A model generated the notes under the pieces. The model was not told the origin of the DNA and did not search any database. It worked only from the letters and a program-made list of their open reading frames with translations. Source: an uncultured Oscillospiraceae bacterium (GTDB lineage Bacteria; Bacillota; Clostridia; Oscillospirales; Oscillospiraceae). From it: a stretch of DNA of 38,844 nt. Location: assembly GCA_905234625.1 (NCBI GenBank), contig CAJOIC010000028.1:1-38844 (forward strand), in the 5' to 3' direction. How positions within the stretch are numbered: position 1 is the stretch's first letter; every line of letters starts with the position of its first letter. The position numbers and the translations under genes are program-made. Shown here piece after piece: positions 13,049 to 33,610 of the stretch.

Positions 13049-13252
13049 TCACATATGGGCGATGACCTCCATGGCTTTATAGATGGGGGAGGTGAAGAAC
13101 TCCTCCTCCGGGATATCCTCCACGGCCTCGCCCAGGGCCTTCGCCTCCGTCTTCCGCGCGAGCTTCCTCTCGTGAGCCCGCACGATCTGAAGGGACAGGA
13201 TCACGAAGCAGGCGCACACCGCCACGAAGATATAGAACAGGGTGAGCAGCAC
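13049..13252 (-). CDS. Small membrane protein (67 aa) in the beta-helix operon
   Basis: The frame starts at GTG 13250-13252 with AGGAGG ten bases upstream, placed directly after the stop of the secreted beta-helix-like gene, so the two are probably co-transcribed. The N-terminus is one transmembrane helix (about 1-25, MLLTLFYIFVAVCACFVILS). A basic stretch HERKLARK and an acidic tail EDIPEEEFFTSPIYKAMEV follow, predicted cytoplasmic. A strong terminator lies 15 bases beyond its stop. The good ribosome-binding site, terminator and topology support a real gene; the family is not recognised. It could help secretion or anchoring of the preceding product. Confidence 0.75.
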   Translation of the reverse strand: MLLTLFYIFVAVCACFVILSLQIVRAHERKLARKTEAKALGEAVEDIPEEEFFTSPIYKAMEVIAHM

Positions 13253-13277
13253 GATGATACTACCTCCTTATTCCGAA

Positions 13278-15230
13278 TCAGTCGATGCCGCCGAAGCCGC
13301 CGGGAGGCTCGTCGCTGGGACCCAGGTCCGCAGGGCGCTCGGGAGGCATGGAGCCGTCCGGCATATTGCTCGCTTCGCCCGAGGCGCTCCCGGCAGCGGG
13401 CGTCACCACGATATCGCCCTCCCAGGTGCCGCCGGCGGTGATATCCACGGCGGCGCCGTCCACGGTCACGCCGCCGGTAATGACGGCGCCGGGAGCCACG
13501 GTCAGGCGGTTGAGGTTCGATTCCTCCGTCACGTTCCAGACGGAGTCCGCGTCCATGGTGAGGAAGGTGCCGCGTACCGCGTCATATTCCTCGAAGGCAC
13601 ACAGCCAGCCATAGATGGCGCTGGGGTCCACCACCCGGAAGTTGGAGCCGGTCTCGGTGGGATCGGCCGCGTTCACATAGAGGTTCGTGGCGGGGTCCAG
13701 CACGTAGCTCACGTCCGCATAGTCCGCGAACAGGGCATTCCAATGGGCGTTGTCGTAGGTATGGATGGCGCCGGTGAGGGTGGTGTTCCTGAAGTCCAGG
13801 ACCATGGGACGCTGGTAGTCCTCGTTCACGATATCTCCGGTCCAGTCATTGTCCACGGAGTTCACCTGGCAGCCGGGGATCTCCTCGGTAGCCACGTCGT
13901 CCAGGATCTGGATGGTGCTCTCGTCCAGGTCCACACAGGACATGATGATGACGCCGTTGGAGGATTCAAGGGCCACGTTCTCCAGGTTCGCCGTGCCGCA
14001 GGCCCCCCGGAAGAGGATCGCGGCGCCCTTGAGGTGGTCGAGCCAGGCCTGCTGGATAACGGGGTACTTGTTCTCCCGCTGGTAGGTCGCCCCCGCCGTG
14101 GAGATGAGGGAATTCCTCGCGTTCAGCACGGGAAGGGTCCTCCAGGCGGTGGAGACCGCGGAGTCCTTCACGCCGGTTTCGGGGTTTGCCTGATGGAAGG
14201 TGTCCACCACGTGGAAGACGATGGCGTTCTGGTCGGCGACGATCTCGGTGGGAGTATCCTCGCTGAGCTCCTGGCCCGCCAGGTTCTCCAGGAAGATCTC
14301 GTCCTCCGCCTCCGCCGCCGCCGCGGAGGAGTCCAGGTTCAGGTTGCCGGTGTTGGTGCAGAAGGCGCCGTACTCGGCGGAGTCGAACCGGGAACCGAAG
14401 ACATTCACGGTCAGTCCGGTATCGGCGTAAGTGCCGTACCCGCCGAAGCGGTTGATGGCATCGCCGTTGTAGAGATAGAAATTATAGGAGCTGCCGCCGG
14501 TATCGGTGGACCAGGAGCCGTAGCCCTCGCTGGCCACGGTGGTGTTGTAGATGTACGCGGAAAGGGTGCCGCAGGCAATGAGGTTGCGGGAATTGCCCAG
14601 CTGCGCCGTGAACCAGGGCATATCGCAGTATTCCGCGTCCGCGCCGGTGGATTCGAAATAGCTGTCCTTGATGATCGTGGTGCCGGAGGACAGGCTCACG
14701 GTGTAGCGGCCCAGGCCGCTGTCCCGGGCGTAGACGTTGTCGATGACCATCTCGCCGCTGCCCCGGGCCGCGATGGCCACGCCGCCGGAGGTGGTGGAGC
14801 CCCAGGCGTAGCCGTCGGCCTCCCGGAGGTCGATGACGGTGTTGAAGCTCAGCTCCTCCCCGGTGTAGTGGGTGGTGACGGTATAGTTGTCCGTTTCGCC
14901 GCCCAGGATAAGCTTCTCCGTGCCGGTGTATTCCAGGCCGCCGGCGGCATTGTCCTCGCTGGTGATGCGCACGCCGGTGATCACCGACGCGCTCGCCACC
15001 GCGTCCGGCGCAAAGTCGATGGTCACGAGACTGTCGTCGATCTCCAGGCCGTCCTCCGAGACGGTGTAGACCGCCGTGCCCGCGCCCGCCGCCATATTGG
15101 GCATGGGTCCTCCCTCCGAGGCTCCGCCGGAGGCCTCGCCGGAGGCGAAGGCTCCGCCGCACAGTCCGAAGACCATCAGTACGGCCAGGGCCAGCGCCAT
15201 AACGCTCAGCTTTTGCTTTTTCATAAACAT
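13278..15230 (-). CDS. Secreted beta-helix-like protein A (650 aa)
   Basis: A clear signal peptide (MFMKKQKL, then a hydrophobic core, cleavage near AFA-SGEAS) is followed by a Gly/Ser-rich linker. A long Asn/Thr/Val-rich repetitive region then alternates short strands and turns, typical of right-handed parallel beta-helix or pectate-lyase-like folds. No LPxTG, S-layer or lipobox anchor is visible, so it is exported and either released or bound non-covalently. It is a paralogue of the divergent gene at 15387: shared blocks include NEDYQRPMVL against HEDYQRKMVL, and DADSVWNVTEESNLNRLTV against DADSSWTVTGDSSLNSLTV. GAGGAGG precedes the ATG. No catalytic motif of a known polysaccharide lyase was identified; a binding or scaffolding role is as likely as enzymatic activity. 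Confidence 0.85.
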   Translation of the reverse strand: MFMKKQKLSVMALALAVLMVFGLCGGAFASGEASGGASEGGPMPNMAAGAGTAVYTVSEDGLEIDDSLVTIDFAPDAVASASVITGVRITSEDNAAGGLEYTGTEKLILGGETDNYTVTTHYTGEELSFNTVIDLREADGYAWGSTTSGGVAIAARGSGEMVIDNVYARDSGLGRYTVSLSSGTTIIKDSYFESTGADAEYCDMPWFTAQLGNSRNLIACGTLSAYIYNTTVASEGYGSWSTDTGGSSYNFYLYNGDAINRFGGYGTYADTGLTVNVFGSRFDSAEYGAFCTNTGNLNLDSSAAAAEAEDEIFLENLAGQELSEDTPTEIVADQNAIVFHVVDTFHQANPETGVKDSAVSTAWRTLPVLNARNSLISTAGATYQRENKYPVIQQAWLDHLKGAAILFRGACGTANLENVALESSNGVIIMSCVDLDESTIQILDDVATEEIPGCQVNSVDNDWTGDIVNEDYQRPMVLDFRNTTLTGAIHTYDNAHWNALFADYADVSYVLDPATNLYVNAADPTETGSNFRVVDPSAIYGWLCAFEEYDAVRGTFLTMDADSVWNVTEESNLNRLTVAPGAVITGGVTVDGAAVDITAGGTWEGDIVVTPAAGSASGEASNMPDGSMPPERPADLGPSDEPPGGFGGID

Positions 15231-15254
15231 CCTCCTCTTTATATGATTTATTTG

Positions 15255-15386: not shown

Positions 15387-17288
15387 ATGAAAAGATCCCT
15401 TAAGCTCGCGTCGCTCCTGATGGCGCTGGTCTTCGCGCTGACCCTGGGCACGGCGGCCTTCGCCTCCGGCGAGGCCTCCTCCTCCATGCCCGGCGAGGCG
15501 CCTCCCGCTCCTCCCAGCGCCATGGCGCAGAACACCGAAGACATGAAGAACACCGCCGCCGTGTCCGTGATGGACGGCGCGGTGGAGACCGACGCCGACG
15601 CCATCATCGCCGAGGGCGATATCTCCACCGGCGGCATCTCCGGCCTGCTGGCGGGCTACGACGGCATCGGCGACTGGGACGGCTCCTCCGTCTTCGGTCA
15701 CTACGGCCTCGTCCTCTCCGGCGACAGCGGCGAGTTCACCATCGGCGGACCTGAGGATCTCTACGAGATCGACGGCCAGGGCTACAACACCGTGCTGGTC
15801 CTGGGCGCTGAGGACCGGGATGAGCCGAACGCCCTCGGCGGCAGCGACACCCGCGACTACAAGGACGCCCAGGAGGGCGCTGAGGGCGCCGGCATCTACG
15901 CCGACATGCCCGTCGTCACGCTGGACAACGTCTATGTCTACACCTCCGGCTACGGCCGCAGCGCCATGCACACCACCTCCGACGTGGAGAAGACCGTCAT
16001 CCGGGACAGCTCCATCATCGCGGTGGGCTCCGAGGGCCGCGATTCCTCCGCGCCCGGCGTCATCTGCATGTACGCCAGCTCCCGCCCCCTGCTGATCGAG
16101 TCCTCCGGCAAGACCTACATCTATAACAGCGACGTCATCAGCTCTGACTGGGGCGTCTACTCCCTGGACGGCTGCTACGGCGCCGATGTCTATATCGTCA
16201 ACGACTACTCCCTGAACACCGTCGGCGGTTACAGCATGTACGCGCTGGGCTTTGCCTCCGGCCAGGAGAACAGCACGTATTTCTACGGCTCCTACGCCGC
16301 CTCCGCCCAGTACGGCACCATCCTCTGCGCCGCGGGCCGCACCTACACCGGCGCTCTGTCCGACGCCCCCGCCGAGGCTCTGGCGGAGCTGGGCGCGTCC
16401 GGACTCCGGGAGCCCACCCTGAAAAACGGCTGGTCCTACATCGGCGGCCGCACCAACGCCGTCACCATGCAGGCGGACATGTCCGGCGCGGAGATCGTGG
16501 GCATCCTGGACGCCACACACACCATCTTTGATACCCAGGGCGTCACCGACCGGGACGGCTATCAGCTGGACGACACCATGGACCTCTACGACTACAAAAA
16601 CGACATGGCCTACGGCGCCGCTCACTACTTCCTGAACTACATCCACGGCTCGGTCTTCGCCATCCGCAGCGAGAATGTGGACATGACCCTGGACGACTGC
16701 CAGGTCTTCTCCTCCAACGGCGTCGCCATCCGCAGCGTCATCGGCTACGACAACATGGCCTCCAACATCCGGGTCGCCGACGGCACCGAATACCACGGCC
16801 ATGACATCACCGTGAAGAACATGGACCTGGTTGGCGATATCCTCCACGAGGACTACCAGCGCAAGATGGTCCTCACCCTGGAGAACGCCGACCTCTGCGG
16901 CGCGGTGATCTCCGGCACCTACGCCGCCTGGCGTCAGAACATCTCCGACTTCATCGACGCGGACTGGTCCGAGTACGACGAGTCCCTGGGCCATACCAAG
17001 GACGTGGTCCTGAGCACCCTGTGCTACGATGAGGCCTACGATACCATCTGGGGTGTCCGCATGAGCCTGGACGCGGACTCCAGCTGGACCGTCACCGGCG
17101 ACTCCAGCCTGAACAGCCTCACCGTGGCGGAGGGCGCGCAGATCGCCGCTCCTGCCGGTCATGAGCTGGAGATCTACGTGGACTGCGGCATGGACGGCTC
17201 CCAGGTCTTCTACGACTGGACCTCCGGCACCCGGGTGGATTCCCTCGGCGCGGGCGAGTATTCCGGCGTCGTCATCCTGGTAAAATGA
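15387..17288 (+). CDS. Secreted beta-helix-like protein B (633 aa)
   Basis: The signal peptide MKRSLKLASLLMALVF with cleavage near AFA-SGEAS is followed by a Pro/Ser linker. A long repetitive beta-rich domain then continues to the C-terminus, containing repeats of the style TYIYNSDVISSDWGVYS and SVFAIRSENVDMTLDDC. It is the divergent paralogue of the 650-residue protein; the last about 400 residues align in the same order. It has no recognised anchor and ends VVILVK. A GGAAGAG ribosome-binding site precedes the ATG, and its promoter carries the shared cluster element. The sequence is very GC-rich with strong codon bias, suggesting high expression. Possible roles are a cell-surface binding or adsorption protein for the substrate imported by the downstream ABC system, or a polysaccharide-active protein. 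Confidence 0.85.
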   Translation: MKRSLKLASLLMALVFALTLGTAAFASGEASSSMPGEAPPAPPSAMAQNTEDMKNTAAVSVMDGAVETDADAIIAEGDISTGGISGLLAGYDGIGDWDGSSVFGHYGLVLSGDSGEFTIGGPEDLYEIDGQGYNTVLVLGAEDRDEPNALGGSDTRDYKDAQEGAEGAGIYADMPVVTLDNVYVYTSGYGRSAMHTTSDVEKTVIRDSSIIAVGSEGRDSSAPGVICMYASSRPLLIESSGKTYIYNSDVISSDWGVYSLDGCYGADVYIVNDYSLNTVGGYSMYALGFASGQENSTYFYGSYAASAQYGTILCAAGRTYTGALSDAPAEALAELGASGLREPTLKNGWSYIGGRTNAVTMQADMSGAEIVGILDATHTIFDTQGVTDRDGYQLDDTMDLYDYKNDMAYGAAHYFLNYIHGSVFAIRSENVDMTLDDCQVFSSNGVAIRSVIGYDNMASNIRVADGTEYHGHDITVKNMDLVGDILHEDYQRKMVLTLENADLCGAVISGTYAAWRQNISDFIDADWSEYDESLGHTKDVVLSTLCYDEAYDTIWGVRMSLDADSSWTVTGDSSLNSLTVAEGAQIAAPAGHELEIYVDCGMDGSQVFYDWTSGTRVDSLGAGEYSGVVILVK

Positions 17289-17303: not shown

Positions 17304-17337
17304 AAGGACCTCGGCTCACGGGCCGAGGTCCTTTTTT
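17304..17337. terminator. Bidirectional terminator between beta-helix B and the LysR pair
   Basis: AAGGACCTCGGC and GCCGAGGTCCTT form a 12-bp stem with a six-base loop and T tract at 17332-17337. The A run on the other side lets it serve convergent transcription as well; it overlaps the stop of the minus-strand LysR gene. Confidence 0.92.
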
Positions 17338-18223
17338 ACGGATGGTTTTTATAATACGTCTGCAAAAATGTCGCCAGCTCCGGCAGGAGCGGGTTCTCGT
17401 TCGTCCGCTTCCAGAGGCAGATCACATCGTCCGTGATGTCCGTCGCGTGACCGACGAGGCCCTCCATCCGCACGAAGGGCGTGAATCGCCCTCCGGCCAG
17501 GGTCACGCCCCGAGTGTGGACCATTTCCGTGAGCAGGGTCTGGTAATTTGGCAGGTTTATAAGCTCCGGCGGACTCAGCCGCGCCACCAGCCGCTCCCGG
17601 AAACCCAGGAGCCGGTACTCCGTCCGGATCCAGTTCCAGGCCAGGGTCATGAGCAGCGGCAGACCCCAGCAGTCCTCCTGCATGGGACCGTCTCCCAGGT
17701 CTTTCGGCGCGTAGAGCAGGATATCCTCCCTGGCCACCACCGCCGTCTCCAGGTCCCGCCGGTCCGGCTGCTGCGCCCCGGAAAAGAAGGCGCAGTCCAC
17801 CTCCCCGTCCAGGAGCGCATCCAAAAGCTCGTTGTTCGTGAACTGATAGAACGAGAAATTCGTCCGCCGTTTCTGACCGAAGAATGCCTTAAAACCCTCC
17901 CCGAAGGCGCCGAAGGGGTCCAGCCACTCCGAGACGCCCACCTTCAGCCGCATGGCAAGGCTCTTCTGATGCAGACGGATATCCTCCATGAGGAACGCGA
18001 ACTGCCGGGCCTGGCCCTCAAACAGGCGGTAGTACATGCCGCCCATCTCCGTCAGGGACAGCCGGGGGCCGTTCCGGTCGAAGAGCCGCACGTCCAGCTC
18101 CTTCTCCAGGGCGATGACCTGCTTCGACACCGCCTGGGGCGACAGGTACAGCTCCGACGCCGCCGCGGAAAAGCTCAGCCGCTTCGCCGCCTTCAGAAAG
18201 CAATCCACTTGGTTCGTGTTCAT
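17336..18223 (-). CDS. LysR-family transcriptional regulator A
   Basis: This 295-residue protein has the LysR N-terminal winged HTH (about 3-62; LSFSAAASELYLSPQAVSKQ with recognition helix near 28-43). A linker helix and an effector-binding domain follow (about 90-295, beginning RLKVGVSEWLDPFG). Its ATG overlaps the stop of the upstream LysR gene as ATGA, so the two regulators are translated together and may form a hetero-oligomer. The effector domain resembles that of the tandem-HTH regulator at 30448: SEWL, then NNELLDALLDG against NTDLLAALESG, and REDILLYAP against REDICLFLP. It probably controls the adjacent cluster. Confidence 0.93.
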   Translation of the reverse strand: MNTNQVDCFLKAAKRLSFSAAASELYLSPQAVSKQVIALEKELDVRLFDRNGPRLSLTEMGGMYYRLFEGQARQFAFLMEDIRLHQKSLAMRLKVGVSEWLDPFGAFGEGFKAFFGQKRRTNFSFYQFTNNELLDALLDGEVDCAFFSGAQQPDRRDLETAVVAREDILLYAPKDLGDGPMQEDCWGLPLLMTLAWNWIRTEYRLLGFRERLVARLSPPELINLPNYQTLLTEMVHTRGVTLAGGRFTPFVRMEGLVGHATDITDDVICLWKRTNENPLLPELATFLQTYYKNHP

Positions 18224-19095
18224 ACGCTGCTCCTCCTCTGGCGGACATAGCTCTCGAACAGGGACACCCAGGGACTGACCCGGCCCTGCTTCGTCACGAA
18301 CACCAGCCTGAGCTTATGCTCCGGCAGGGGCAGCCAGCGCAGCCCCTCCGCGGCGGCGGACATGGGGGCGATGGTATAGCACCCGCCGCACAGCAGCTGG
18401 GTATATGTGGAGCGGACGTTTGGCACCACCTCCATCTGCTTCGGAGAGATGCCCAGCTCCGCGCAGAACATCCCCACGCGGCGGCGGACGGACTCCTCGT
18501 CCGGCTCCCCCATGGGCGCGGCGATCTGCCGCAGCTCGGACAGCTCCTCCATGGAGGGGAGCTCCTCCAGGTCCCGGGACACCACATACATGGCCTGCTC
18601 CGCGAAGGGCGGGGATATGATGAGCCCCCGCAGGCTGTAGGTGCTGTACTCCGGCAGGACCGCGATATCGGCGTTGCCGTCCTCCAGCATGTCCGCCACC
18701 TCCCGGGTAGCGCCCTGCCGGGTATGGAGCCGGACGTTGGGGTAGGTCTGTCGGAAGCCCAGAAGATCCTCCTCCAGTCCCAGGGGACAGCCCGTCCAGT
18801 CGTTCCAGGCCACGTACAGCTCGTTCATCCCCTCCACGGACATGCGGCGGCTCTGCCGCTCCAGAGTGGAGAGCTGGGCGTCGTGCTCCGTGCGCCACCG
18901 CAGGAAGCGCTCTCCCGCCCAGGTGAGGGTGATGGCGCTGCCGCCCCGGTTCAGAAGCTCAAAGCCCAGCTCCGCCTCCAGAGCCTGGATGTTGCGGCTC
19001 ACCGCCTGCTGCGTGCTGGATATCTCCCGGGCGCTGATGGTGAAGCTGCCGGTACGCGCCACCGACAGGAAACAGGCCAGCTCCATATCGTTCAC
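18220..19095 (-). CDS. LysR-family transcriptional regulator B
   Basis: This 291-residue LysR protein has an HTH at about 3-62 (TGSFTISAREISSTQQAVSR) and an effector domain from about 90. GTG at 19093-19095 is used as the start because AGGGGG lies nine bases upstream; an ATG three codons later is possible. It is divergent from the importer operon, whose first gene starts 178 bases away. This is the classic arrangement for a LysR regulator acting on the shared intergenic region. It precedes and overlaps LysR A by four bases. The TQQAVS recognition helix matches the first HTH of the tandem-HTH regulator at 30448. Confidence 0.93.
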   Translation of the reverse strand: MNDMELACFLSVARTGSFTISAREISSTQQAVSRNIQALEAELGFELLNRGGSAITLTWAGERFLRWRTEHDAQLSTLERQSRRMSVEGMNELYVAWNDWTGCPLGLEEDLLGFRQTYPNVRLHTRQGATREVADMLEDGNADIAVLPEYSTYSLRGLIISPPFAEQAMYVVSRDLEELPSMEELSELRQIAAPMGEPDEESVRRRVGMFCAELGISPKQMEVVPNVRSTYTQLLCGGCYTIAPMSAAAEGLRWLPLPEHKLRLVFVTKQGRVSPWVSLFESYVRQRRSSV

Positions 19096-19273: not shown

Positions 19274-20944
19274 ATGAAACACATTTCCCGGCTTCTGGCC
19301 CTGGCTCTCTGCCTGGTCCTGTGCCTGAGCCTCGCCGCCTGCGGCGGCAGCAGCTCCAGCACCGCCAGCGAGGCCCCCGCCAACGACACCGCCGAGGCCG
19401 CCCCCGCCGCCGCGGAAGAGAGCGCCGCGGAAGCCCCTGCCGCCGACGGCGACCTGAAGGTATTCGTCTACGGCACCGACGCCAACTCCACCACCTTCGA
19501 CCCGGCCTCCGACCTGCAGACCAACTCCGGCAACTTCCTCGTCCACGCCGTGGGCGAGAGCCTGTGGACCTGCGACGCGGACGGCAACATGACCATGAAG
19601 GTCGCAAGCAATGTCGATTACAACGAGAACGTGCTGGACATCACTCTGAACCAGGGCGTCATGTTCTCAAACGGCGACGAGCTGACCGCTGAGGACGTGC
19701 TCTTCACCTTCCAGCACAACGCCAGCCAGTTCCGCACCATGGCCATGTACGCCTGCATGGATCTGGCCAACGCCGAGATCGCGGACGACTATCACCTGGT
19801 CATCCCCATGAACTACTATGACGCTGCCCTCATCGACCTGCTGGGCAACGCCTCCTGCATGATCCTCGACGCCGACGTAGCCGGCGCGGACGGCTATGCC
19901 TTCGACTGGCTCATCGGCACCGGCCCCTACATGCTCCAGGGCGACGGCATCACCGACAAGTCCGGCTGGGAGGAGTCCGTCAAGTACACCCTGGTCCGCA
20001 ACCCCAACTACTGGGGCGAGGCTCCTTATTATGACGAGTTCGACGTGTACTTCTACTCTCAGGAGTCCACCCGCTATGCCGATCTGCAGTCCGGCAAGCT
20101 GGACGCGGCCTATCTGACCGAGGCCACCTACATCAACAACCTCTCCAAGGGCGCTGTGCCCGACGCCTCCCTCATCTCCGTGAACGAGAACGCCGTCTTC
20201 TGCTTTGAGATGGCCGTGGAGATGGGCGGCGCCTCCGGCGAGGCCGGCGAGCCCGCCGTCTTCTCCGACATCAACGTCCGCAAGGCGCTGGCCCACTGCC
20301 TGGACATCCCCACCATGGTGGAGAGCCTGGGCGAGGGTGTCTACGACGTCGCCTCCTCCTTGGTGGGCGAGGGCAGCTGGGTCTATGAGGACCTGGGCGT
20401 CTACGAGTACGATCCCGAGCTGGCCGCTCAGTATCTGGCCGAGGCCGGCTATGGTCTCGACAATCCTCTGAACGTGTCCGTCTACTGCGAAGGCACCGCC
20501 TGGAACGCCGCTCTGTGTGAGGCCGCGCAGGCTTATGCCGCCGCCATCGGCATCAACCTGGATCTCTCCAACGTCACCGATTTCGCCACCATCCTGCCGA
20601 GCCTCATCGCCAACCAGGTGCCCATGTCCGTCGGCCAGGGCTCCAACGGCTCCGGCAACGACCCCGCGAACCTGCTGCAGCAGTTCGGACCCAGCTCCGA
20701 CAACTCCCTGCTCCGCGTCCGCGATGAGGAGCTGGCAGAGCTCTTCAACGCAGGCTCCTCCGAGCCCGACCACGCCAAGCGCGTGCAGATCTACCAGGAT
20801 CTGATCCGCGGCATGTACGATCAGTATCACGTCATCCCCATCTGCGTGGGCACCGTGAACTTCGGCGTGAAGGACGTCCACACGAGCTTCGCAGCAGCCA
20901 TCGACACCTCCAACCGCGTCGATCCCTGCCTGCTGACCGACTGA
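19274..20944 (+). CDS. ABC transporter substrate-binding lipoprotein, family 5 (Opp/Dpp type)
   Basis: This 556-residue lipoprotein has a signal peptide ending in the lipobox LAAC, Cys24. A Ser/Ala/Glu-rich tether leads to a mature domain typical of OppA/DppA solute-binding proteins, for example the YFYSQESTRYADLQSGKLDAAY region and the VRKALAHCLD segment. It sits on the outer face of the membrane and delivers substrate to the permeases encoded just downstream. Family 5 members bind peptides, but also nickel, glycosides and other small molecules, so the substrate is not fixed by homology. AAGAAAGGACGG precedes the ATG. First gene of the operon and divergent from LysR B. Confidence 0.95.
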   Translation: MKHISRLLALALCLVLCLSLAACGGSSSSTASEAPANDTAEAAPAAAEESAAEAPAADGDLKVFVYGTDANSTTFDPASDLQTNSGNFLVHAVGESLWTCDADGNMTMKVASNVDYNENVLDITLNQGVMFSNGDELTAEDVLFTFQHNASQFRTMAMYACMDLANAEIADDYHLVIPMNYYDAALIDLLGNASCMILDADVAGADGYAFDWLIGTGPYMLQGDGITDKSGWEESVKYTLVRNPNYWGEAPYYDEFDVYFYSQESTRYADLQSGKLDAAYLTEATYINNLSKGAVPDASLISVNENAVFCFEMAVEMGGASGEAGEPAVFSDINVRKALAHCLDIPTMVESLGEGVYDVASSLVGEGSWVYEDLGVYEYDPELAAQYLAEAGYGLDNPLNVSVYCEGTAWNAALCEAAQAYAAAIGINLDLSNVTDFATILPSLIANQVPMSVGQGSNGSGNDPANLLQQFGPSSDNSLLRVRDEELAELFNAGSSEPDHAKRVQIYQDLIRGMYDQYHVIPICVGTVNFGVKDVHTSFAAAIDTSNRVDPCLLTD

Positions 20945-21007: not shown

Positions 21008-21997
21008 ATGATAAAATACATCCTCCGCAGGCTCCTGCTCATCATCCCTGTGCTGCTGGGAGCCATCATCGTGGTGTTCACCATCAACTACTTCAGCACC
21101 ACGGACCCTGCCATGGTAAAGCTGGGCCTCTCCGCCTCCGACCCCGTGAAGCTTGCGGCCATGAGAGAGCAGATGGGCCTGAACCGTCCCTACATCGTGC
21201 AGCTGGCCGACTATATCTGGCGGCTCTTCCACGGTGATCTCGGAAACTCCTACGTCTACGCCAAGACAGTGTGGGAGCTTCTCGCCGGCCGCATCCCCAA
21301 CACCCTCAAGCTCGGCCTCGGCGCCATGGTGATCTCCGTCTGCGTCGGCATCCCCCTGGGCATCGTGGCCGCCCTGCACCAGAACTCCGCCATCGACTAC
21401 ATCACCACCACCTTCGCCGTCATCATGAACGCCATGCCGGGCTTCCTGGTGGCTGTCATCCTCATGCTGATCTTCGCTCTGAAGCTGGGCTGGTTCCCGG
21501 TCTCCGGCGCGGAGGGCTTCAAGAGCTTCGTGCTCCCGGTCATCGCCGCCGGCATCGGACCCATCACGCAGAACGCCCGTATGACGCGGTCCTCCATCCT
21601 GGAGGTCATCCGCCAGGACTACGTCCGCACCGCCCGGGCCAAGGGCATCGCGGAGGGCAAGGTCATCACGAAGCACGTGCTGAAAAACTCCCTCATCCCC
21701 ATCCTCACCATGGTGGGCGCGGGTCTCGGCACCTGCCTCGCGGGCTCGATCCTCGTGGAGATGATCTTCAACATCCCCGGCATGGGCATGCTCATAAACT
21801 CCTCCATCATGGCCAAGGACTTCATCACCGTCCAGGGCTGCGTGGTGGTGTGCGCCGTCGTCGTGGCGCTAGCGAACCTTCTGACGGACCTGGCCTACGC
21901 CTACGTCGATCCCCGTATCAAGGCCCAGTACACCGCCGGCAGCAAGAAGGACAAAAAAGCGGCCGAGGCCGCGGATAAGGAGGCGAGCGCGGCATGA
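21008..21997 (+). CDS. ABC transporter permease (OppB/DppB type)
   Basis: This 329-residue integral membrane protein has six predicted helices, starting MIKYILRRLLLIIPVLLGAI. The conserved binding-protein-dependent transport loop (RQDYVRTARAKGIAEGKV, about 200-217) docks with the ATPase subunit. The C-terminus is Lys/Ala/Glu-rich. AGAGGAG lies upstream of the ATG, 63 bases after the binding-protein gene. It overlaps the next permease by four bases. It forms the translocation channel with the OppC-type partner. Confidence 0.95.
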   Translation: MIKYILRRLLLIIPVLLGAIIVVFTINYFSTTDPAMVKLGLSASDPVKLAAMREQMGLNRPYIVQLADYIWRLFHGDLGNSYVYAKTVWELLAGRIPNTLKLGLGAMVISVCVGIPLGIVAALHQNSAIDYITTTFAVIMNAMPGFLVAVILMLIFALKLGWFPVSGAEGFKSFVLPVIAAGIGPITQNARMTRSSILEVIRQDYVRTARAKGIAEGKVITKHVLKNSLIPILTMVGAGLGTCLAGSILVEMIFNIPGMGMLINSSIMAKDFITVQGCVVVCAVVVALANLLTDLAYAYVDPRIKAQYTAGSKKDKKAAEAADKEASAA

Positions 21998-27340: not shown

Positions 27341-27359
27341 TAAAGGAGGTATGCACCGA

Positions 27360-28076
27360 ATGTACACAACAGAACAGCTCACCCAGCGGTGGGAGGATCA
27401 GCGCGCCATCAAGAACCTGATGGGCAAATACGCGAACATCGTCCTGCTGAACCGGGAGGAGGAGGTCTTCTCCCGCTTCTGGAGTGAGAACGAGCCCACC
27501 CTGGCCTTCAACGACGGCGTCTATCGCGGCGTCGAGGCGGTGAAGGGGTATTATGACGCCTGCCGTGACCGGAACGCGCTGGTGGCAAGCCTCATGCAGA
27601 AGAAGTTCCCCGAGCGCCTCGGCGGCATGACGGAGGAGGAGCTTTACGGCATCGGACCCTTCAAGGTCATGCCCATGTACTGCCCCATCATCGAGGTGGC
27701 GGGAGACGGCAGGACCGCCAAGGGCCTCTGGTACTGCCAGGGCGCGAAAAACGACGTGGAGGCCTGCGGTCCCCGCGCCCGCTGGACCCTCGGCTGGTTC
27801 GCGGTGGACTTCATCCGCGGATCCGACGGCTGGAAGATCTGGCACATGCAGTACGTGAACGACGTGGACTGCACCTGCGGCCAGAGCTGGGGCAGGGAAC
27901 CCGTCAGCTATCCCGATCTGCCGGAGTTTGCGCCGCTGAAGGACTTTGTCTATCCCGCATACACCGAGGCGAAGACCGTCCGGGCGTACTACTCCCCCGA
28001 CCGGCCCATCACCGAGGCCCCCGCCATCCCGGAGCCCTATGAGACCTTTGCTGACACGTTCAGCTACGCAGTCTGA
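27360..28076 (+). CDS. NTF2/SnoaL-like protein 1 (238 aa)
   Basis: The ATG at 27360 is chosen because AAAGGAGG lies ten bases upstream; the ATG at 27351 is too close to it. The protein has a SnoaL-like alpha+beta cone: N-terminal helices (TQRWEDQRAIKNLMGKYA), a central VEAVKGYYDACRDRN helix, and strands VKGLWYCQGAKN-like and GWKIWHMQYVNDVDC. The C-terminus is extended and ends with AIPEPYETFADTFSY. Related folds include polyketide cyclases, steroid delta-isomerase and the bile-acid dehydratase BaiE. The BaiE-type Tyr-x4-Asp pair is not preserved here. A dehydratase, isomerase or ligand-binding role in the pathway of the adjacent ene-reductase is inferred. Confidence 0.85.
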   Translation: MYTTEQLTQRWEDQRAIKNLMGKYANIVLLNREEEVFSRFWSENEPTLAFNDGVYRGVEAVKGYYDACRDRNALVASLMQKKFPERLGGMTEEELYGIGPFKVMPMYCPIIEVAGDGRTAKGLWYCQGAKNDVEACGPRARWTLGWFAVDFIRGSDGWKIWHMQYVNDVDCTCGQSWGREPVSYPDLPEFAPLKDFVYPAYTEAKTVRAYYSPDRPITEAPAIPEPYETFADTFSYAV

Positions 28077-28098: not shown

Positions 28099-28202
28099 TA
28101 TCCAAAAAGAACTTTGGACTCGCACGAAACAGTCTGTTATCGAGCGAAATCTGCCCGGTAACGCTCCCTGGTTCGTACATTAACAAGTTATAGGAGCGAC
28201 TT

Positions 28203-28913
28203 ATGTTCAAAAAGGATTATACTGACGACGAGCTGATCCGCCGCGTGTGGGACATCGAGGAGATCAAGAAGCTCGTGTATAAGCGCGGCGTCTACATCGC
28301 CAACGACTGGCGCGAGCGCGAGATCGACGAGCTCTGGGTGAAAGAGCCCGAGCATCAGAAGACGGCCTCCTTCGGCAAGAACATCGGCTGGTATGTCGGC
28401 ATCGACAACATCCGCGCCTGGTACGACAAGAAGCACGGCGACGGCTACATGGCCTTCCATCCCGCCTCCACGGGCCTCGTGGAGCTGGCCGGGGACGGCA
28501 AGACCGCCAAGGGCCTGTTCTACTCCATCGCCAACGAGACCGAGTCGAACGGCGACGGTACCGCCAACGCCCTCTGGATGCCCGAGAAGCTCGCCTTCGA
28601 CTTCATCAAGGAAGGGGACTCATGGAAGATCTGGCACCTGGTAGCCGCGGTGGATCTGGTCAGCGAGGCCGGTACCGATTACAGCGATCAGGACCCCTAC
28701 CCCAACTATGAGACCGACCCCGTGATGGTGGAATTCGGCACCCCCACGGTGCCCCAGCTCATCCACGACGGCACCTTCAACTGGTGGGACAACTATCCCG
28801 CCATGCCCGAGCCCTATGAGACCTGGTCCGACGATATCAGCTACGGCCCCGAGGGCTGGAAGGCCCCCAAGGGCAAGCACTACGGCGCACGGGAAGGGAG
28901 GAACTACAAATGA
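28203..28913 (+). CDS. NTF2/SnoaL-like protein 2 (236 aa)
   Basis: It has the same domain plan as its neighbours: helices WDIEEIKKLVYKRGVY, then NIRAWYDKKHGDGYMAFHP, strands TAKGLFYSIANETES and SWKIWHLVAAVDLVSE. A long tail contains NYPAMPEPYETWSDDISYGP. The core resembles SnoaL/BaiE/ketosteroid-isomerase-type proteins, which bind hydrophobic small molecules in a conical pocket and catalyse isomerisation, cyclisation or dehydration. TAGGAGCG precedes the ATG. Its stop overlaps the start of protein 3 by four bases. It is about 126 bases from protein 1 across a hairpin, so its level may differ from the upstream genes. Confidence 0.85.
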   Translation: MFKKDYTDDELIRRVWDIEEIKKLVYKRGVYIANDWREREIDELWVKEPEHQKTASFGKNIGWYVGIDNIRAWYDKKHGDGYMAFHPASTGLVELAGDGKTAKGLFYSIANETESNGDGTANALWMPEKLAFDFIKEGDSWKIWHLVAAVDLVSEAGTDYSDQDPYPNYETDPVMVEFGTPTVPQLIHDGTFNWWDNYPAMPEPYETWSDDISYGPEGWKAPKGKHYGAREGRNYK

Positions 28914-29668
28914 GAGAACTGACACTGCACGAGCGCATCCGCAACGCCGCCGCCTCCCAGGAGGTGGAGAACGTCAAGGCCCGCCACACTTACCTCCATG
29001 GCCGCGCCGACGCCACCACCGAGTGGGACGAGATCTGGTGCATGGACGAGAACGCCTCCTGGGCCCACGCCTTCGGCCGCATGCGCGGCGGGGACCAGGT
29101 CTGGTGGGGTTCCGTGGGCGACTACGACAAGATGTGCTTTGAAAACTGGCTGGAGATCCGGGAGCGCTATCCCGAGGTCACCGGCAAGGACCCCCGGCCC
29201 CTGATGGAGGCCTCCGTCCACACCCTGGTGACAGACGTCATCGAGGTCGCCGCCGACGGCAAGTCCGCCCGGGGCAGCTTCATCACCCCCGGCGTCATCC
29301 ACTCCCGCCTGACGGACGACGGCAGACCCTACTGCAACGTCCTCTGGGAGCGGTACGGCTCCGACTTCGTCCTGGTGGACGGGGAGTGGAAATACCTGCA
29401 CGAGCACGTCTGCCCGGACATCCTGACCCGGATGGACTGCTTCGACTGGGCCCACGGCGAGTACGAGCGTCTGACGGATCCCAACCCCAATCCTCCCCCT
29501 CCCCCCACTCTGGGAGCGCCTCCGGTTACGGATCCCGGCCCCCTGCACACCCCCTATTCCGTGCTGGACCGGCCGAAGAACACCGTCCCCTGGCCCGAGC
29601 CCTATGAGACTCTGGACAACGACAACACCTACACCTCCCTCGTAGCGAAGAAGGATTACTGCTCATAA
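28910..29668 (+). CDS. NTF2/SnoaL-like protein 3 (252 aa)
   Basis: Third tandem member: helices ERIRNAAASQEVENVKARHTY, a WDEIWCMDENASWAHAFG segment and strands KSARGSFITPGVIHSR and GEWKYLHEHVC. A Pro-rich linker (PNPNPPPPPTLGAP) leads to the tail WPEPYETLDNDNTYTS. The Pro-rich insertion separates the catalytic-type core from the shared PEPYET tail, as if the tail were a distinct docking segment. It overlaps protein 2 by ATGA and is followed by a strong terminator. Function is inferred only from fold and context. Confidence 0.85.
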   Translation: MRELTLHERIRNAAASQEVENVKARHTYLHGRADATTEWDEIWCMDENASWAHAFGRMRGGDQVWWGSVGDYDKMCFENWLEIRERYPEVTGKDPRPLMEASVHTLVTDVIEVAADGKSARGSFITPGVIHSRLTDDGRPYCNVLWERYGSDFVLVDGEWKYLHEHVCPDILTRMDCFDWAHGEYERLTDPNPNPPPPPTLGAPPVTDPGPLHTPYSVLDRPKNTVPWPEPYETLDNDNTYTSLVAKKDYCS

Positions 29669-29805: not shown

Positions 29806-30420
29806 ATGAAACGCATGCTGAAAGCCCTGCTCGTGACGACCCTGATCGCCTGCCTCGCCTTCTCCATGGCAGCCCCCGCCTTCGCGGATGTGCTCTCCAT
29901 GACCCGGCAGGCTGCGGAGGATGCCCTGGAGGACGAGGTCCTGGACGACGATGAGCTGGAGGAGGTCTCCGCGTCTGAGATCCGGTACGAGCATACCCGT
30001 CAGTTCACGGAAGGTCTGGACATGATCGACCTCGACTGGGAGTATCACGGTCTGGACGATGAGGACTACGAGCTCATTACGGTGGAGGATTATTTCATCG
30101 ATGACGACGAAGAAGAGCATGAATATGTCATCCAGGTGTTTTTCGAGGATGACGAGACCAGCATCGGCCTCCGCATCTGGAACGCCATCGATTTCGATGA
30201 GGAGGATTATGCCGATGTGATACTCCTGTGCAACGATATCAACTACGCGTTCCGCTACTTCAAGACCTTTGTGGACGACACCGACAATAGTGTCACCATC
30301 GCTGCGGACCTGTTGGTGGACGAGGATCAGGACGTCACCGTCCAGTCGCTGAACCTCATCGTCATGACCGAGATGTTCATGACCGAGGTCGGCCCCTACC
30401 TGCTGGATTACGCCATCTGA
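29806..30420 (+). CDS. Secreted acidic YbjN-like protein (204 aa)
   Basis: A signal peptide (cleavage near APAFA-DV) is followed by a strongly Asp/Glu-rich domain. The mature region from about 50 to 200 fits the YbjN fold: VIQVFFEDDETSIGLRIW, then LCNDINYAFRYFKTFVDDTD, VTIAADLLVDEDQD and a final amphipathic helix. YbjN relatives are related to type III secretion chaperones and are normally cytoplasmic, so an exported, very acidic version is unusual. GAGAGGAG precedes the ATG. It lies between the NTF2-like genes and the tandem-HTH LysR gene, 27 bases from the latter. A role binding a basic surface partner or metal ions outside the cell is conceivable, but nothing in the sequence proves it. Confidence 0.8.
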   Translation: MKRMLKALLVTTLIACLAFSMAAPAFADVLSMTRQAAEDALEDEVLDDDELEEVSASEIRYEHTRQFTEGLDMIDLDWEYHGLDDEDYELITVEDYFIDDDEEEHEYVIQVFFEDDETSIGLRIWNAIDFDEEDYADVILLCNDINYAFRYFKTFVDDTDNSVTIAADLLVDEDQDVTVQSLNLIVMTEMFMTEVGPYLLDYAI

Positions 30421-30447: not shown

Positions 30448-31566
30448 ATGACCGATAAAATGCTCGCCTACTTCGCGGCCGCCCAGAGAACGGGCAGCTT
30501 CTCCACCGCCGCGTGGGAGCTGTCCGCCACCCAGCAGGCCGTGAGCTACGGCATCAAAAAGCTTGAGGAGGAGCTGGGCTTCCCCCTCTTCGTGCGCCGC
30601 GCCAGCCGCGTGGAGCTCACCGCCGGAGGTCAGGCCTTCCGCGCCTGGTACGAGGCCCTGGACCGCGAGGCCGCCCGCCTAGCGGCGGAGGAGCCCGCCC
30701 GCGTCCCCGCCGGAAGCGTCACAGACACCCAGGTGCGCTGCTTCCTGGCCGCCGCCCGGGAGGGCTCCGTGGTCACCGCCGCCGCCTCTCTTTATTACGC
30801 GCCCCAGACCCTGGCGGAGCACCTGACCGCGCTGGAGGCCGCCCTGGGGGTCTCCCTCCTGCGCAGGAAGGACGGCGTCTGCACCCTCACCCCCGCGGGA
30901 GAGGCCTACCGGCAGGTCTTCGAGAGCGCCGCCGCCGCCCTGGCCGCCCTCCGGACCGAGGCCGGGTCCCAGTACGACAGCCGCCTGAACACCGCGGTCC
31001 TGGGCCTGTCCGAATGGCTCAGCACCGACGGCCCTCTGGGCGAAGCGCTGGACGCCTTCCCCGGGAACGTGAAGGTGGAGGTCCTGTCCAACACGGACCT
31101 GCTGGCGGCCCTGGAGTCCGGCCGGGCGGATGTGGCCCTCTGGAGCGAGGGACACGCCCCCGTGAACCGGGGTTTTGAGACTACGCCCCTGGGCCGGGAG
31201 GATATCTGCCTCTTTCTGCCGGAGGAGGATGGGCCCTGCCCTCTGCTGGTCTGTCCCGGCTGGCCGCGCAGCTACCTGGAGAACCGGGCCATCGTCACCC
31301 AGGAGACACGCTTCGGCTCCTTCACCCCCAGCCGCATCCTCCAGGCGGAGGACGTAGGTCAAATGCGGGAGCTGCTGGCCCAGGGCTCCTATGCCGCCGT
31401 GGGAGACCGGCGCTTCGGCTCTCTGGCGCCGAGGGCGAGCCTGCGGGCCGTGCCCCTGGGGATCGAGAGCTCCCTGGTGGCCTGCCGCCGGACGAACGAG
31501 GGCGACTGCTGCGCCGCCCGCCTCGTCATCCATCTCCGCGCCTCCCTTGTCGGGGGGACAAAATAA
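30448..31566 (+). CDS. LysR-type regulator with two tandem DNA-binding domains (372 aa)
   Basis: Two LysR-type winged HTH units lie in one chain. The first spans about 4-64 (TGSFSTAAWELSATQQAVSY) and the second about 92-152 (EGSVVTAAASLYYAPQTLAE), joined by an Ala/Glu/Pro linker. A single effector domain follows (about 180-372, AVLGLSEWLSTDG onward). Normal LysR proteins are about 300 residues with one HTH. HTH1 resembles LysR B (18220) and HTH2 plus effector domain resembles LysR A (17336). The order is that of the overlapping B-A gene pair, so a fusion of such a pair is likely. No clear ribosome-binding site precedes the ATG, so expression may depend on read-through from the YbjN-like gene. 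It probably controls ene-reductase 2 immediately downstream. Confidence 0.92.
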   Translation: MTDKMLAYFAAAQRTGSFSTAAWELSATQQAVSYGIKKLEEELGFPLFVRRASRVELTAGGQAFRAWYEALDREAARLAAEEPARVPAGSVTDTQVRCFLAAAREGSVVTAAASLYYAPQTLAEHLTALEAALGVSLLRRKDGVCTLTPAGEAYRQVFESAAAALAALRTEAGSQYDSRLNTAVLGLSEWLSTDGPLGEALDAFPGNVKVEVLSNTDLLAALESGRADVALWSEGHAPVNRGFETTPLGREDICLFLPEEDGPCPLLVCPGWPRSYLENRAIVTQETRFGSFTPSRILQAEDVGQMRELLAQGSYAAVGDRRFGSLAPRASLRAVPLGIESSLVACRRTNEGDCCAARLVIHLRASLVGGTK

Positions 31567-31636
31567 CGCCTCTTTACCTCCGCCCTCCGCCGGAGGTATT
31601 ATAGTGACAGAAATACTGTGAATAGGAGCCTGTGCC

Positions 31637-33610
31637 ATGAATGCCTACTACCCCCACCTGTTCGAGACCTTCTCCGTCAAGGGCCTCACCTTCCGCAACC
31701 GCATCTTCTCCGCCCCCAACATGATCTCCCAGATGGACCCCAACGGCTATCCCATGCCCGACATGATCGCCTACTACGCCGAGAAGGCCAGAGGCGGCGC
31801 CGCCGTCGTCACCCTGGGCGATACTCCCGTCGATCGGGAGCACGCGGCCTCCAACCCCCGGAGCTTCAACCTGGACTATAATAACCCCATCGCGGTCCTG
31901 CCCTATCTTTCCGAGATCGCCATGGCCATCCACGAGGGCGGCGCCATCGCCTCCCACGAGCTGAACCACGCCGGTATGTACGCAAATCCCGCCGCCAACA
32001 ACGGCGGCGAGCCCATCGGCCCGGTGGACTTCTACCGGGACTGGGACGACGTGCAGGTCCGGGGCATGACCGAGAAGGACATGGACGATGTAGCGGAGCA
32101 CTTCGCCTGCTGCGCCGAGCTTCTCAAGAAGGCGGGCTATGACATGTGCCTGCTCCACGGCGGCCACGGCTGGCTCCTGGACCAGTTCCTCTCCCCCTAC
32201 TACAACACCCGCACCGACGAGTACGGCGGCTCCCTGGCCAACCGCGCCAAGTTCCCCATCATGGTCATCGACCGCGTCCGGGAGCGCGTGGGCGACAAGT
32301 TCCTCATCGAGTACCGCATGTCCGGCTGCGAGGAGATCGACGGCGGCCTGCAGATCGAGGAGGCAGTGGAATTTGCCAAAATGATCGACGGCAAGGTGGA
32401 CTTCATCCATGTCTCCGCGGGCCTCGACACCGAGGAGGCCCAGGCCGTCCGCACCCATCCCACCATGTTCCTGCCCCATGGCGTGAACGTAAAGTACGCC
32501 GCCGCGGTGAAGGCCGCCGGCGTCAAGACCCCGGTGGTCACCCTGGGCGCCATCAACACCCCGGAGCTGGCCGAGCAGGTACTGGCGGAGGGCAAGGCGG
32601 ACATCGTCGCCATGGCCCGGACCCTCATCGCCGACCCCCACTTCCCCGAGAAGGCCTCCCAGGGCCGTACCATGGAGATCACTCCCTGCCTGCGCTGCCT
32701 GGACTGCCTGACAGGCCTGCACACCGGCGAGCACTTCCAATGCTCCGTGAACCCCTCCGCCGGCCGTGAGCTGCGCTACCGCAACTATGTCCAGCCCGTG
32801 GAGAGGAAAAAGAAGGTCCTCGTCGTCGGCGGAGGCCCCGCCGGTCTCCAGGCCGCCGCCACCGCTGCCAAGCGCGGTCACGACGTGACCCTGGCGGAGC
32901 GCTCCGATAAGCTGGGCGGCTTCCTGAAATTCACCGACTATGACGATCTCAAGATCGACCTGTGGCGGCTGAAGGAGCACCTCGTCTACATGGCGGAGCA
33001 TTCCGGCGCGAAGATCCTGCTGAACACCGAGGTCACCCCGGAATTCGTGAAGGAAAACGGCTTCGAGGCCGTGCTCCTGGCGGCGGGCTCTCTGGCCGCC
33101 AAGCCCCCCATCCCCGGCCTGGACGATCCCCGGGTCCAGCACGCCACCGTGGCCTACACCCAGCTCGACAAGCTCGGCCATCACGTGGCCGTCCTGGGCG
33201 GCGGTCTCATCGGCTGCGAGACGGCCCTGTTCCTGGCCAAGGCCGGACACGAGGTCACCATCGTGGAGATGCTGCCCGCCATCGCCCCCGAGGCCAACTG
33301 GATGCACAAGGAGGGCATGATGCAGGCCTTCGCCGAGACCCCCTCCCTCCACGTCCGGGCAGGCATCCGGGTCACCGGCATCGACGACGGATCAACTGTC
33401 CACGCTGTGGATTCCGATGGCGTCGAGCATGTGATCGAGGCCGACTCCGTCATCTATGCTCTGGGCCTCCGGTCCAACATGGATGCCTACGAGAGCCTGT
33501 TCTACTCCGCGCCTCAGGTCATCGCCGTGGGCGACTGCCTGCGGGGCGTGAAGCCCAAGAAGACCCGGGAGGCCATGCTGGAGGGCTACTGGGCCGCCAT
33601 CCGCCTGTGA
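31637..33610 (+). CDS. Old-Yellow-Enzyme-type flavin/Fe-S ene-reductase 2
   Basis: This 657-residue paralogue of ene-reductase 1 has the same layout. The FMN TIM barrel contains HGGHGWLLDQFLSP and DEYGGSLANR. The cluster cysteines are 351, 354, 357 and 369 (CLRCLDC, then FQC). The FAD domain has GGGPAG at 398-403 and the NAD domain has VLGGGLIGCET. Trp179 replaces the FadH-type active-site Tyr, as in its paralogue. It should reduce a C=C bond conjugated to a carbonyl, using NADH. AATAGGAG lies eight bases before the ATG. It is the only gene between the tandem-HTH LysR gene and a terminator, so it forms its own regulator-enzyme module. Clear differences from paralogue 1 around the substrate loop suggest another substrate or another step. 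Confidence 0.93.
   Translation: MNAYYPHLFETFSVKGLTFRNRIFSAPNMISQMDPNGYPMPDMIAYYAEKARGGAAVVTLGDTPVDREHAASNPRSFNLDYNNPIAVLPYLSEIAMAIHEGGAIASHELNHAGMYANPAANNGGEPIGPVDFYRDWDDVQVRGMTEKDMDDVAEHFACCAELLKKAGYDMCLLHGGHGWLLDQFLSPYYNTRTDEYGGSLANRAKFPIMVIDRVRERVGDKFLIEYRMSGCEEIDGGLQIEEAVEFAKMIDGKVDFIHVSAGLDTEEAQAVRTHPTMFLPHGVNVKYAAAVKAAGVKTPVVTLGAINTPELAEQVLAEGKADIVAMARTLIADPHFPEKASQGRTMEITPCLRCLDCLTGLHTGEHFQCSVNPSAGRELRYRNYVQPVERKKKVLVVGGGPAGLQAAATAAKRGHDVTLAERSDKLGGFLKFTDYDDLKIDLWRLKEHLVYMAEHSGAKILLNTEVTPEFVKENGFEAVLLAAGSLAAKPPIPGLDDPRVQHATVAYTQLDKLGHHVAVLGGGLIGCETALFLAKAGHEVTIVEMLPAIAPEANWMHKEGMMQAFAETPSLHVRAGIRVTGIDDGSTVHAVDSDGVEHVIEADSVIYALGLRSNMDAYESLFYSAPQVIAVGDCLRGVKPKKTREAMLEGYWAAIRL

Follow-up and report, generated by a model that had tools for sequence, protein, structure and literature searches.

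The contig CAJOIC010000028.1 of an uncultured Oscillospiraceae bacterium, analysed at its full length of 38,844 nucleotides (hereafter the window; contig C28 of a genome that is 82% complete in 118 contigs), carries a locus in which an Opp-type ATP-binding cassette (ABC) importer, a small protein and an ene-reductase of the OYE family (OYE1) are followed by three SnoaL-type genes designated Sno1, Sno2 and Sno3. The locus is a real conserved unit, as its gene order recurs in other species beyond chance. It is interpreted here, with a probability of roughly 0.4, as a single copy of a catabolic module repeated in a gut Oscillospiraceae-type family, in which a substrate would be imported, subjected to an elimination by the SnoaL triad and reduced by OYE enzymes. 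The computed parts of this interpretation are an ordered triad with LdpA as its nearest solved relative, linkage to importers, a flavin reductase at about half of the fetched triad loci, and co-occurrence with OYE genes and with the secreted proteins BH1 and BH2. The order and repetition of the triad, and the tracking of the triad by the secreted proteins across genomes, are invisible from one window.

The SnoaL genes form an ordered, largely co-inherited triad

Sno1, Sno2 and Sno3 share 24–28% identity with one another over their aligned parts. A profile led by Sno2 (A1) was searched at a threshold of E≤1e-12, with E<1e-60 defining a strong match. Matches were obtained in 21 of 300 genomes of the family, 13 of which (seven genera) were strong while eight held one or two weaker matches, and in 5 of 398 genomes of a phylum sample, namely the genome of the window and four with weak matches. 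Within the genus of the window the triad was present in 10 of 35 genomes, its own genome counted (60 genomes searched). Genes were then called in 78 fetched sequences around SnoaL matches using a simple home-made gene caller, which lies behind the triad order, tree, distance-matrix, residue, linkage, neighbour, OYE-motif and LysR counts given below. The resulting 76 SnoaL runs comprised three genes in 50 cases, one in 15, two in 7, six in 3 and four in one; the runs of one or two genes (22 of 76) are partly cuts at contig ends. When each gene was labelled by its best hit to the window proteins, independently of its position, 47 of the 54 runs of at least three SnoaL genes followed the order Sno1-Sno2-Sno3; three of these are tandem double triads, and the order is spread over seven genera of a single family. 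The order was non-canonical in 7 of 54 runs, among them divergent sets in loci L066, L076, L077 and L112. The triad of locus L046 was missed by the caller and is shown in order by tblastn.

On a quick tree of the 165 proteins that make up 55 triads the position label changed 6 times, the minimum possible being 2, versus 78 changes in shuffles. The distance matrices of the three subunits correlated at 0.89–0.90 over the 49 canonical triads of these 55, a value reached by 0 of 999 permutations. By these data the three genes are an old set that has mostly been inherited together, though some exchange between triads is possible because the nearest neighbours of the subunits often disagree. At least seven divergent triads occur in a single genome, G241 (loci L123–L127).

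G241 and G090, both of genus g57, yielded 79 and 76 first-look SnoaL candidates, 9 of which were scored in each; their genomes, 2.4 and 3.1 Mb in size, contain 35 and 45 OYE places. Sno1 and Sno2 share one frame at L044:7497-8915 and L065:3873-5339. Fusion of the two was not used as evidence for a complex since both frames come from the fragmentary genome G005, where frameshift errors are likely.

Gene order is conserved between species and in a second genus

The genes of the locus are as follows.

13278..15230, minus strand: BH1, secreted protein of 650 amino acids with a signal-peptide-like N-terminus by eye; paralogue of BH2
15387..17288, plus strand: BH2, secreted protein of 633 amino acids; paralogue of BH1
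17336..18223, minus strand: LysR1 regulator, Pfam HTH_1 and LysR_substrate
18220..19095, minus strand: LysR2 regulator, assigned by Pfam; divergent from SBP
19274..20944, plus strand: SBP, family-5 solute-binding protein of the Opp-type importer (PF00496, E 2.7e-56)
21008..21997, plus strand: PermB, Opp-type permease B, assigned by sequence and synteny without a Pfam scan
21994..22908, plus strand: PermC, Opp-type permease C, assigned likewise
22921..23901, plus strand: ATPd, Opp-type ATPase D, assigned likewise
23898..24860, plus strand: ATPf, Opp-type ATPase F, assigned likewise
24857..25393, plus strand: small protein of 178 amino acids, hydrophobic stretches by eye, no Pfam match
25400..27340, plus strand: OYE1 (ER1), OYE plus pyridine-nucleotide reductase (PF00724, E 1.1e-66; motif HGGHGWL)
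27357..28076, plus strand: Sno1, SnoaL_4 (PF13577 above cut-off), triad position 1, Met at the dyad His position
28203..28913, plus strand: Sno2, SnoaL_4 (PF13577 above cut-off), triad position 2, His86 kept
28910..29668, plus strand: Sno3, SnoaL_4 (PF13577 above cut-off), triad position 3, His104
29806..30420, plus strand: YbjN-like secreted protein (PF10722, E 3.7e-4, 21.2 bits, just under the cut-off of 22)
30448..31566, plus strand: LysR3 regulator with two tandem HTH domains
31637..33610, plus strand: OYE2 (ER2), OYE plus pyridine-nucleotide reductase (PF00724, E 1.8e-57; motif HGGHGWL)

Every gene named in the original prediction, which had been made from the letters of the window alone, was verified in the window. 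By their coordinates the genes from SBP through OYE1 are separated by gaps of at most 63 bp, with some 4-bp overlaps. The OYE1–Sno1 gap is about 20 bp, that between Sno1 and Sno2 126 bp and that between Sno3 and YbjN 137 bp, while Sno2 and Sno3 overlap by 4 bp. Promoter-like sites were found upstream of SBP, of YbjN and of OYE2, and the Sno1/Sno2 junction has them too (28051-28080, 28180-28207). In total 11 were found versus 3.7 expected; terminator-like sites were not in excess (9 found versus 9.4 expected).

Scanning genome contigs with OYE1 resulted in 10 loci (L039–L048). The full order SBP-PermB-PermC-ATPd-ATPf-small protein-OYE1-Sno1-Sno2-Sno3 was found in L041–L045, with SBP or Sno3 truncated in some, and L039 has the importer-OYE1-triad order of the window without a match to the small protein. 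L040 holds the LysR pair, OYE1 and the triad with the importer absent, L046 reads PermB through ATPf, then the triad, then OYE1, and L047 and L048 are partial. The LysR1 and LysR2 pair is retained beside SBP or OYE1 in L039–L042. OYE2 is the next gene past Sno3 in L039 and L048, both of which are cut by a contig end, and YbjN had no tblastn match in any of the ten loci.

In a second genus (g57) the order SBP-PermB-PermC-ATPd-ATPf-small protein-Sno1-Sno2-Sno3 is retained in L123 and L145, where identity to the window is 60–89% for the importer, 31–34% for the small protein and 53–67% for the SnoaL proteins; in L123 a gene resembling OYE2 (54%) and one related to BH come after the triad. Permease B is 70–92% identical in L070–L073 and 85% identical in L123 and L145. 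The small protein lies between ATPase F and OYE1 in L070, L071 and L073 (43–50%) and before Sno1 in L123 and L145 (31–34%); a search of 34 genomes detected it in 6, among them one genus member (G006) that is without the triad. Conserved synteny of importer, ene-reductase and NTF2-like genes, on which the original prediction had staked its proposal of a catabolic locus, is thus present in related species.

The nearest solved relative of the triad is LdpA

By sequence, the nearest solved relative of the triad is LdpA, a gamma-formaldehyde lyase of sphingomonads that acts on the diarylpropane DGPD and belongs to the NTF2/SnoaL proteins. A search with the triad profile returned structures 8abv, 8abt and 8abu (E 1.2e-11 to 3e-11), followed by an uncharacterised protein (E 1.8e-4) and then BaiE (4l8o, E 0.02). 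By their entry titles 8abt is NaLdpA, 8abu is NaLdpA H97Q with substrate and 8abv is SpLdpA; the accessible part of PMC11476836 likewise names 8ABV as LdpA. In single-sequence structure searches Sno1 matched at 4e-4 and Sno3 at 0.07, LdpA coming first wherever there was any match. The original prediction had compared the locus with the bai bile-acid operon; that operon is not supported as the closest parallel, since LdpA ranks first, BaiE follows only at E 0.02 and the Asp of the dyad is absent.

LdpA catalyses a dehydration to a quinone methide and then loss of formaldehyde, as described in the accessible part of PMC12997858. Sno3 His104 aligns with the catalytic His97 of NaLdpA in a weak pairwise match (E 0.07), and the His97 column contains His in 52 of 55 Sno3, 40 of 55 Sno2 and 5 of 55 Sno1 proteins. 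Sno3 has further conserved residues, namely His26 (50 of 55), Tyr28 (47), His30 (51), His53 (49), Arg148 (48), His164 (46) and Asp170 (49), and a metal site or His cluster in Sno3 is possible on the strength of this pattern. The Sno3 structure model was of low confidence (mean pLDDT 52.5, pTM 0.56); in a Foldseek search with it LdpA took ranks 1, 2 and 4, rank 1 having E 3.5e-5 and TM 0.36.

The triad proteins accordingly resemble the LdpA-type NTF2 lyases in sequence, fold and the position of the catalytic His97, the partner Asp not being shared. Lengths are similar (251–263 amino acids) and the His97 position is kept in most Sno2 and Sno3. In contrast to LdpA, which is a single gene, three co-inherited paralogues are found here, and Sno3 has extra conserved His residues (26, 30, 53). 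The sphingomonad pathway includes short-chain dehydrogenase (SDR) enzymes and stilbene dioxygenases (PMC12997858, accessible part), whereas importer and OYE genes accompany the triad.

Secreted BH proteins track the triad

BH1 and BH2 are 27% identical over 635 columns and neither had a Pfam match above cut-off. The indication of a fold was a Beta_helix match of E 2.2e-5, at 24.6 bits against a cut-off of 25.9, in a relative that matches the last part of BH2 (28%, 130 residues). Of the large secreted beta-helix paralogues originally described, the paralogy stands, and the beta-helix nature is reached only via weak relatives. A profile of BH1/BH2 (A2) gave 9–20 places in each of the 10 triad carriers of the genus and none in the 25 other genomes. 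In a family sample of 35 genomes it matched 8 of the 9 strong carriers, two of these only weakly, and among the 26 other genomes just one, G104, a carrier of weak SnoaL matches (Fisher 3e-6, kinship ignored). When both samples were pooled, BH1/BH2-like proteins were present in 18 of 19 triad carriers and in 0 of 43 non-carriers. The carrier G135, a genome of 4.3 Mb in a single contig, was missed by the profile, though a BH-related gene adjoins one of its SnoaL runs (L112).

Proximity is less regular, with a BH-labelled gene within 8 kb of 9 of 53 triad runs and several of these without a signal peptide by eye. A BH2 relative follows Sno3 in L043 (39%) and adjoins the LysR pair and OYE1 in L040 (78%). 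At L040:5517-7937 the BH2 homologue is in frame with an apparent CoA-transferase part (by eye), maybe a chimeric assembly or a recombination. The stretch past Sno3 at L043:10782-18246 holds a BH2 homologue, a thiolase and an esterase of BD-FAE type whose start resembles a signal peptide, and also, by eye, a branched-chain-type solute-binding protein.

Importers and flavin reductases around the triads

The neighbourhood count covers 53 triad runs, versus 54 in the order count, on account of a length filter. Within 8 kb of these runs were found OYE (20), Opp-type ABC parts (18), an SBP_1-type lipoprotein (16), LysR (14) and FAD_binding_2 (11), and more rarely TRAP (3), GntP-like (3), sugar ABC (3) and MFS (2) transporters. 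An importer or solute-binding protein lay within 8 kb of 40 runs, a flavin reductase of 27 and both of 19. Because the types of importer and reductase differ between runs, the triad appears to be the constant element while uptake and reduction vary. The NCBIfam matches of the window SBP were mostly peptide and nickel binders, all far under cut-off.

From a set of 147 neighbours 4 near-identical ones were removed. Among 137 other neighbours, no enzyme family had more than two matches among the 25 commonest of 170 Pfam families, and the 25 commonest of 756 NCBIfam neighbour families were mostly regulators and sugar permeases. Neither a CoA ligase nor an SDR was among these commonest families in either set, in agreement with the original claim that both are lacking. 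A BaiB-type CoA ligase was likewise found neither among the window proteins scanned nor among the 25 commonest neighbour families, no genome-wide search for it having been made, and CoA_transf_3 (the BaiF family) was not found in the 82%-complete genome, in which a missed gene is possible. A CoA-dependent pathway was rejected, as the commonest neighbour families include no enzyme of CoA metabolism, although one locus (L043) has the thiolase mentioned above.

OYE1 and OYE2 are 42.5% identical, and both combine Oxidored_FMN and Pyr_redox_2 domains, placing them in the OYE family as the 2,4-dienoyl-CoA reductase-like long form. The nearest solved structures of both are 2-naphthoyl-CoA reductase (NCR), for OYE1 chain 6qkg 'NCR', with matches of nearly full length. 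Unlike in NCR, however, the NCR Tyr is aligned with Trp in both proteins and no CoA-ligating gene was seen nearby. Out of 31 OYEs aligned the active site was readable in 28; the residue that corresponds to the NCR Tyr is Trp in 18 of the 19 OYEs linked to a triad versus 1 of the 9 unlinked ones. One of the 19, at L112:19165, lies 8.8 kb from the SnoaL gene in its own stretch, which continues into L113 beside that triad. Residues at the corresponding site of the bilirubin reductase BilR mark the clade and matter for activity (PMC10769871, accessible part), which makes the Trp worth testing.

Triad carriers are rich in OYE genes. The ten genus carriers contain 13, 12, 7, 14, 6, 10, 11, 13, 12 and 9 PF00724 places and the 25 other genomes 0–2 (Mann-Whitney 1e-6, kinship ignored); these, like the BH counts, are counts of places, in which a split gene counts twice. 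In the family sample the nine strong carriers hold 20, 45, 12, 42, 5, 23, 29, 35 and 28 OYE places and the 18 non-carriers 0–5, save one with 24 (G068). Genus g37 holds both kinds, with 23 places in the carrier G171 and none in G070, which is not a carrier. FAD_binding_2 places number 2–10 in genus carriers and 0–2 in the others, and a Tat signal was matched in two checked FAD_binding_2 examples. Expansions of such fumarate-reductase-like proteins are a feature of gut bacteria, among them Eggerthellaceae, which the carriers may resemble in number of places and in Tat signals; they differ from them in the linkage to SnoaL triads and BH proteins.

On contig C33 of the window's own genome a SnoaL protein whose start looks by eye like a signal peptide (L052:9483-10436) lies about 2.6 kb from an FAD_binding_2 reductase (L052:13064-14779) whose Tat-signal match is just under cut-off. 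This may be an exported counterpart of the module.

A proposed module for uptake, elimination and reduction

Import followed by cofactor-free elimination and flavin reduction is the simplest reading of the locus; catalysis, a heterotrimer, the substrate class, an electron sink and the role of the BH proteins are what we infer. The SBP and ABC importer would bring in a small ring compound that is unsaturated or oxygenated. Plant compounds of the phenylpropanoid, diaryl or terpenoid type would be favoured over bile acids, the phenylpropanoid or diaryl only because LdpA is the nearest solved relative, red deer appears in the titles of three carrier genomes and a BD-FAE-type esterase is found in L043. 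The triad would probably act as a hetero-oligomer, with the catalytic His coming from Sno3 and Sno2 and with Sno1 as an altered partner, and could carry out a cofactor-free elimination (a dehydration, a formaldehyde or other lyase step, or an isomerisation) that leaves a conjugated C=C. OYE1 and OYE2, with Trp replacing the usual proton-donor Tyr, would reduce this bond with NAD(P)H, possibly as an electron sink, the LysR proteins may sense the substrate, and BH1 and BH2 may be surface or substrate-related partners. Of the original interpretation, the conserved unit and the sequence of uptake, elimination and ene-reduction are retained, and the bai operon is dropped as the closest parallel.

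A considerable number of observations weigh against this reading. Just 26 of the 49 canonical triads, and 4 of the 17 divergent triads, have nearest neighbours that match for all three subunits, and the loci were fetched for their SnoaL matches, orthologues included, so that the counts are not independent. Sno2 alone matches no solved structure at E 0.1 and Sno3 alone only at E 0.07. The column of the dyad Asp of LdpA and BaiE, chosen by eye from the profile alignment, contains Asp in 1 of 165 triad proteins; since it is absent from all three positions, the LdpA mechanism is not simply transferable. The best 50 Foldseek matches had query TM values of 0.30–0.37 (one 0.19) and included many CaMKII hubs, and the low-confidence model together with the low TM therefore supports the NTF2 superfamily only and is silent on oligomers.

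The genomic associations have exceptions as well. No flavin reductase lies within 8 kb of 26 of the 53 triad runs, many of which are cut by contig ends. Eight weak carriers, with one or two distant SnoaL matches, hold 9–30 OYE places, and G068, of the same family (genus g35), has its 24 without any match to the triad or BH profile; OYE expansion is therefore not specific to the triad. The triad-near OYE of L126 is without the Trp and one unlinked OYE has it, and the residue may follow OYE phylogeny, as the unlinked OYEs are all of the OYE2-labelled kind and several of the 19 linked ones are orthologues. In G112 and G171 the BH profile gave short matches of low strength (E 7e-11 and 5e-12), and the co-occurrences at genus level could stem from a single evolutionary event in one clade.

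The alternative closest to the proposed module is that the three SnoaL proteins are separate homo-oligomeric enzymes for successive steps on one substrate, for instance eliminations at three positions, with the pathway keeping the genes together. BaiE is a homotrimer (PMC13101464, accessible part), the dyad His persists in most Sno2 and Sno3 proteins (40 and 52 of 55), and a Streptomyces plasmid with four tandem SnoaL genes would fit a flexible number of steps. The fixed number and order in 47 of 54 runs and the correlated divergence suggest a set, however, and the absence of the His from 50 of 55 Sno1 proteins would be unexpected in an independent LdpA-type enzyme, so that separate enzymes are considered somewhat unlikely. 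It is a good deal less probable that the locus serves bai-type reductive dehydroxylation of bile acids or steroids with an ABC importer replacing BaiG. Both systems combine a SnoaL_4 dehydratase, the 7alpha-dehydratase BaiE being itself a SnoaL_4 protein (PMC10382948, accessible part) and a distant match of the triad profile, with an OYE-type flavoenzyme (BaiCD/BaiH), and BaiCD is the best NCBIfam match of OYE1. Yet the scores of OYE1 and OYE2 on the BaiCD model, 410.7 and 381.4 bits, are about half its cut-off of 825, and no BaiH model was among the NCBIfam matches listed for them. Neither a BaiCD equivalog above cut-off nor a BaiE orthologue nor a BaiF-type CoA-transferase was found, the window has an ABC importer and a triad instead, CoA ligase and SDR are not among the commonest neighbours, and the at least seven divergent triads of G241 imply several substrates.

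An ordinary peptide or nickel importer with chance neighbours, the SnoaL proteins binding a ligand rather than catalysing, is very improbable. The matches of the SBP to peptide and nickel binders and the loss of the catalytic Asp are compatible with it; against it stand the same order in several species and a second genus, an Opp-type SBP that also follows the tandem SnoaL genes of the Streptomyces plasmid (24% identity) and the strongly conserved His residues of Sno3. Hardly any weight is given to OYE1 and OYE2 as BilR-type bilirubin reductases, a disfavoured assignment. They match the NCBIfam long form of that enzyme at 348.5 and 377 bits, under its cut-off of 750, and both have HGGHGWL in place of the HGDR motif of the BilR clade (PMC10769871, accessible part).

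We also put forward, tentatively, a wider version of the proposed module, namely that there are diversified families of such loci, with a logic like that of polysaccharide utilization loci (PUL), for unsaturated or aromatic small molecules. Each would have its own importer, a heterotrimeric SnoaL enzyme (a new architecture) and a Trp-type OYE or FAD reductase, often with a BH-type protein, and would have been multiplied within genomes. If the proposed module is right, some gut Oscillospiraceae-type bacteria devote a sizeable unassigned share of their accessory genome to the import of ring compounds from diet or host and to their reductive elimination, and the ordered triad with a Trp-type OYE could be used as a marker for such pathways in metagenomes. 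It would also suggest a hetero-oligomeric NTF2-fold enzyme, and the electron-sink hypothesis would become concrete enough for an in vitro test with some five proteins. Among the open-literature entries listed, which include few subscription papers, none describes an ordered SnoaL triad or loci of this kind.

Relatives outside the family and other features of the window

A tblastn search of Sno3 against plasmids returned three records at 25–29% identity. The plasmid of Streptomyces sp. NBC_01450 carries four tandem SnoaL genes (L152:7528-10397) whose proteins show a similar motif, PxPYxT, at the C-terminus. The Opp-type SBP that is 24% identical to that of the window lies about 4 kb further (L152:14448-18645), with permeases by eye. 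An apparent 2-oxoacid:ferredoxin oxidoreductase (by eye) comes after the SnoaL genes in this plasmid, which belongs to an unrelated phylum. In Rhizobium rhizogenes K84 pAtK84c (L153:5076-8753) a transporter, a reductase flavoprotein and a SnoaL gene lie in a row, and the third match, in Novosphingobium pTHN, is unannotated. Carriage of the triad as plasmid cargo was rejected, as these three distant Sno3 matches were the only ones, and phage cargo was rejected as Sno2 was without a phage match.

In LysR3 (30448-31566) two tandem winged-helix HTH domains precede the LysR substrate domain; among 33 LysR-like genes scanned this arrangement was found only in LysR3 and in one fused frame (L070). Beyond the locus, a TPP riboswitch (58.2 bits; 34396-34503, minus strand) lies directly upstream of a Thia_YuaJ thiamine transporter gene (33742-34329, minus strand).

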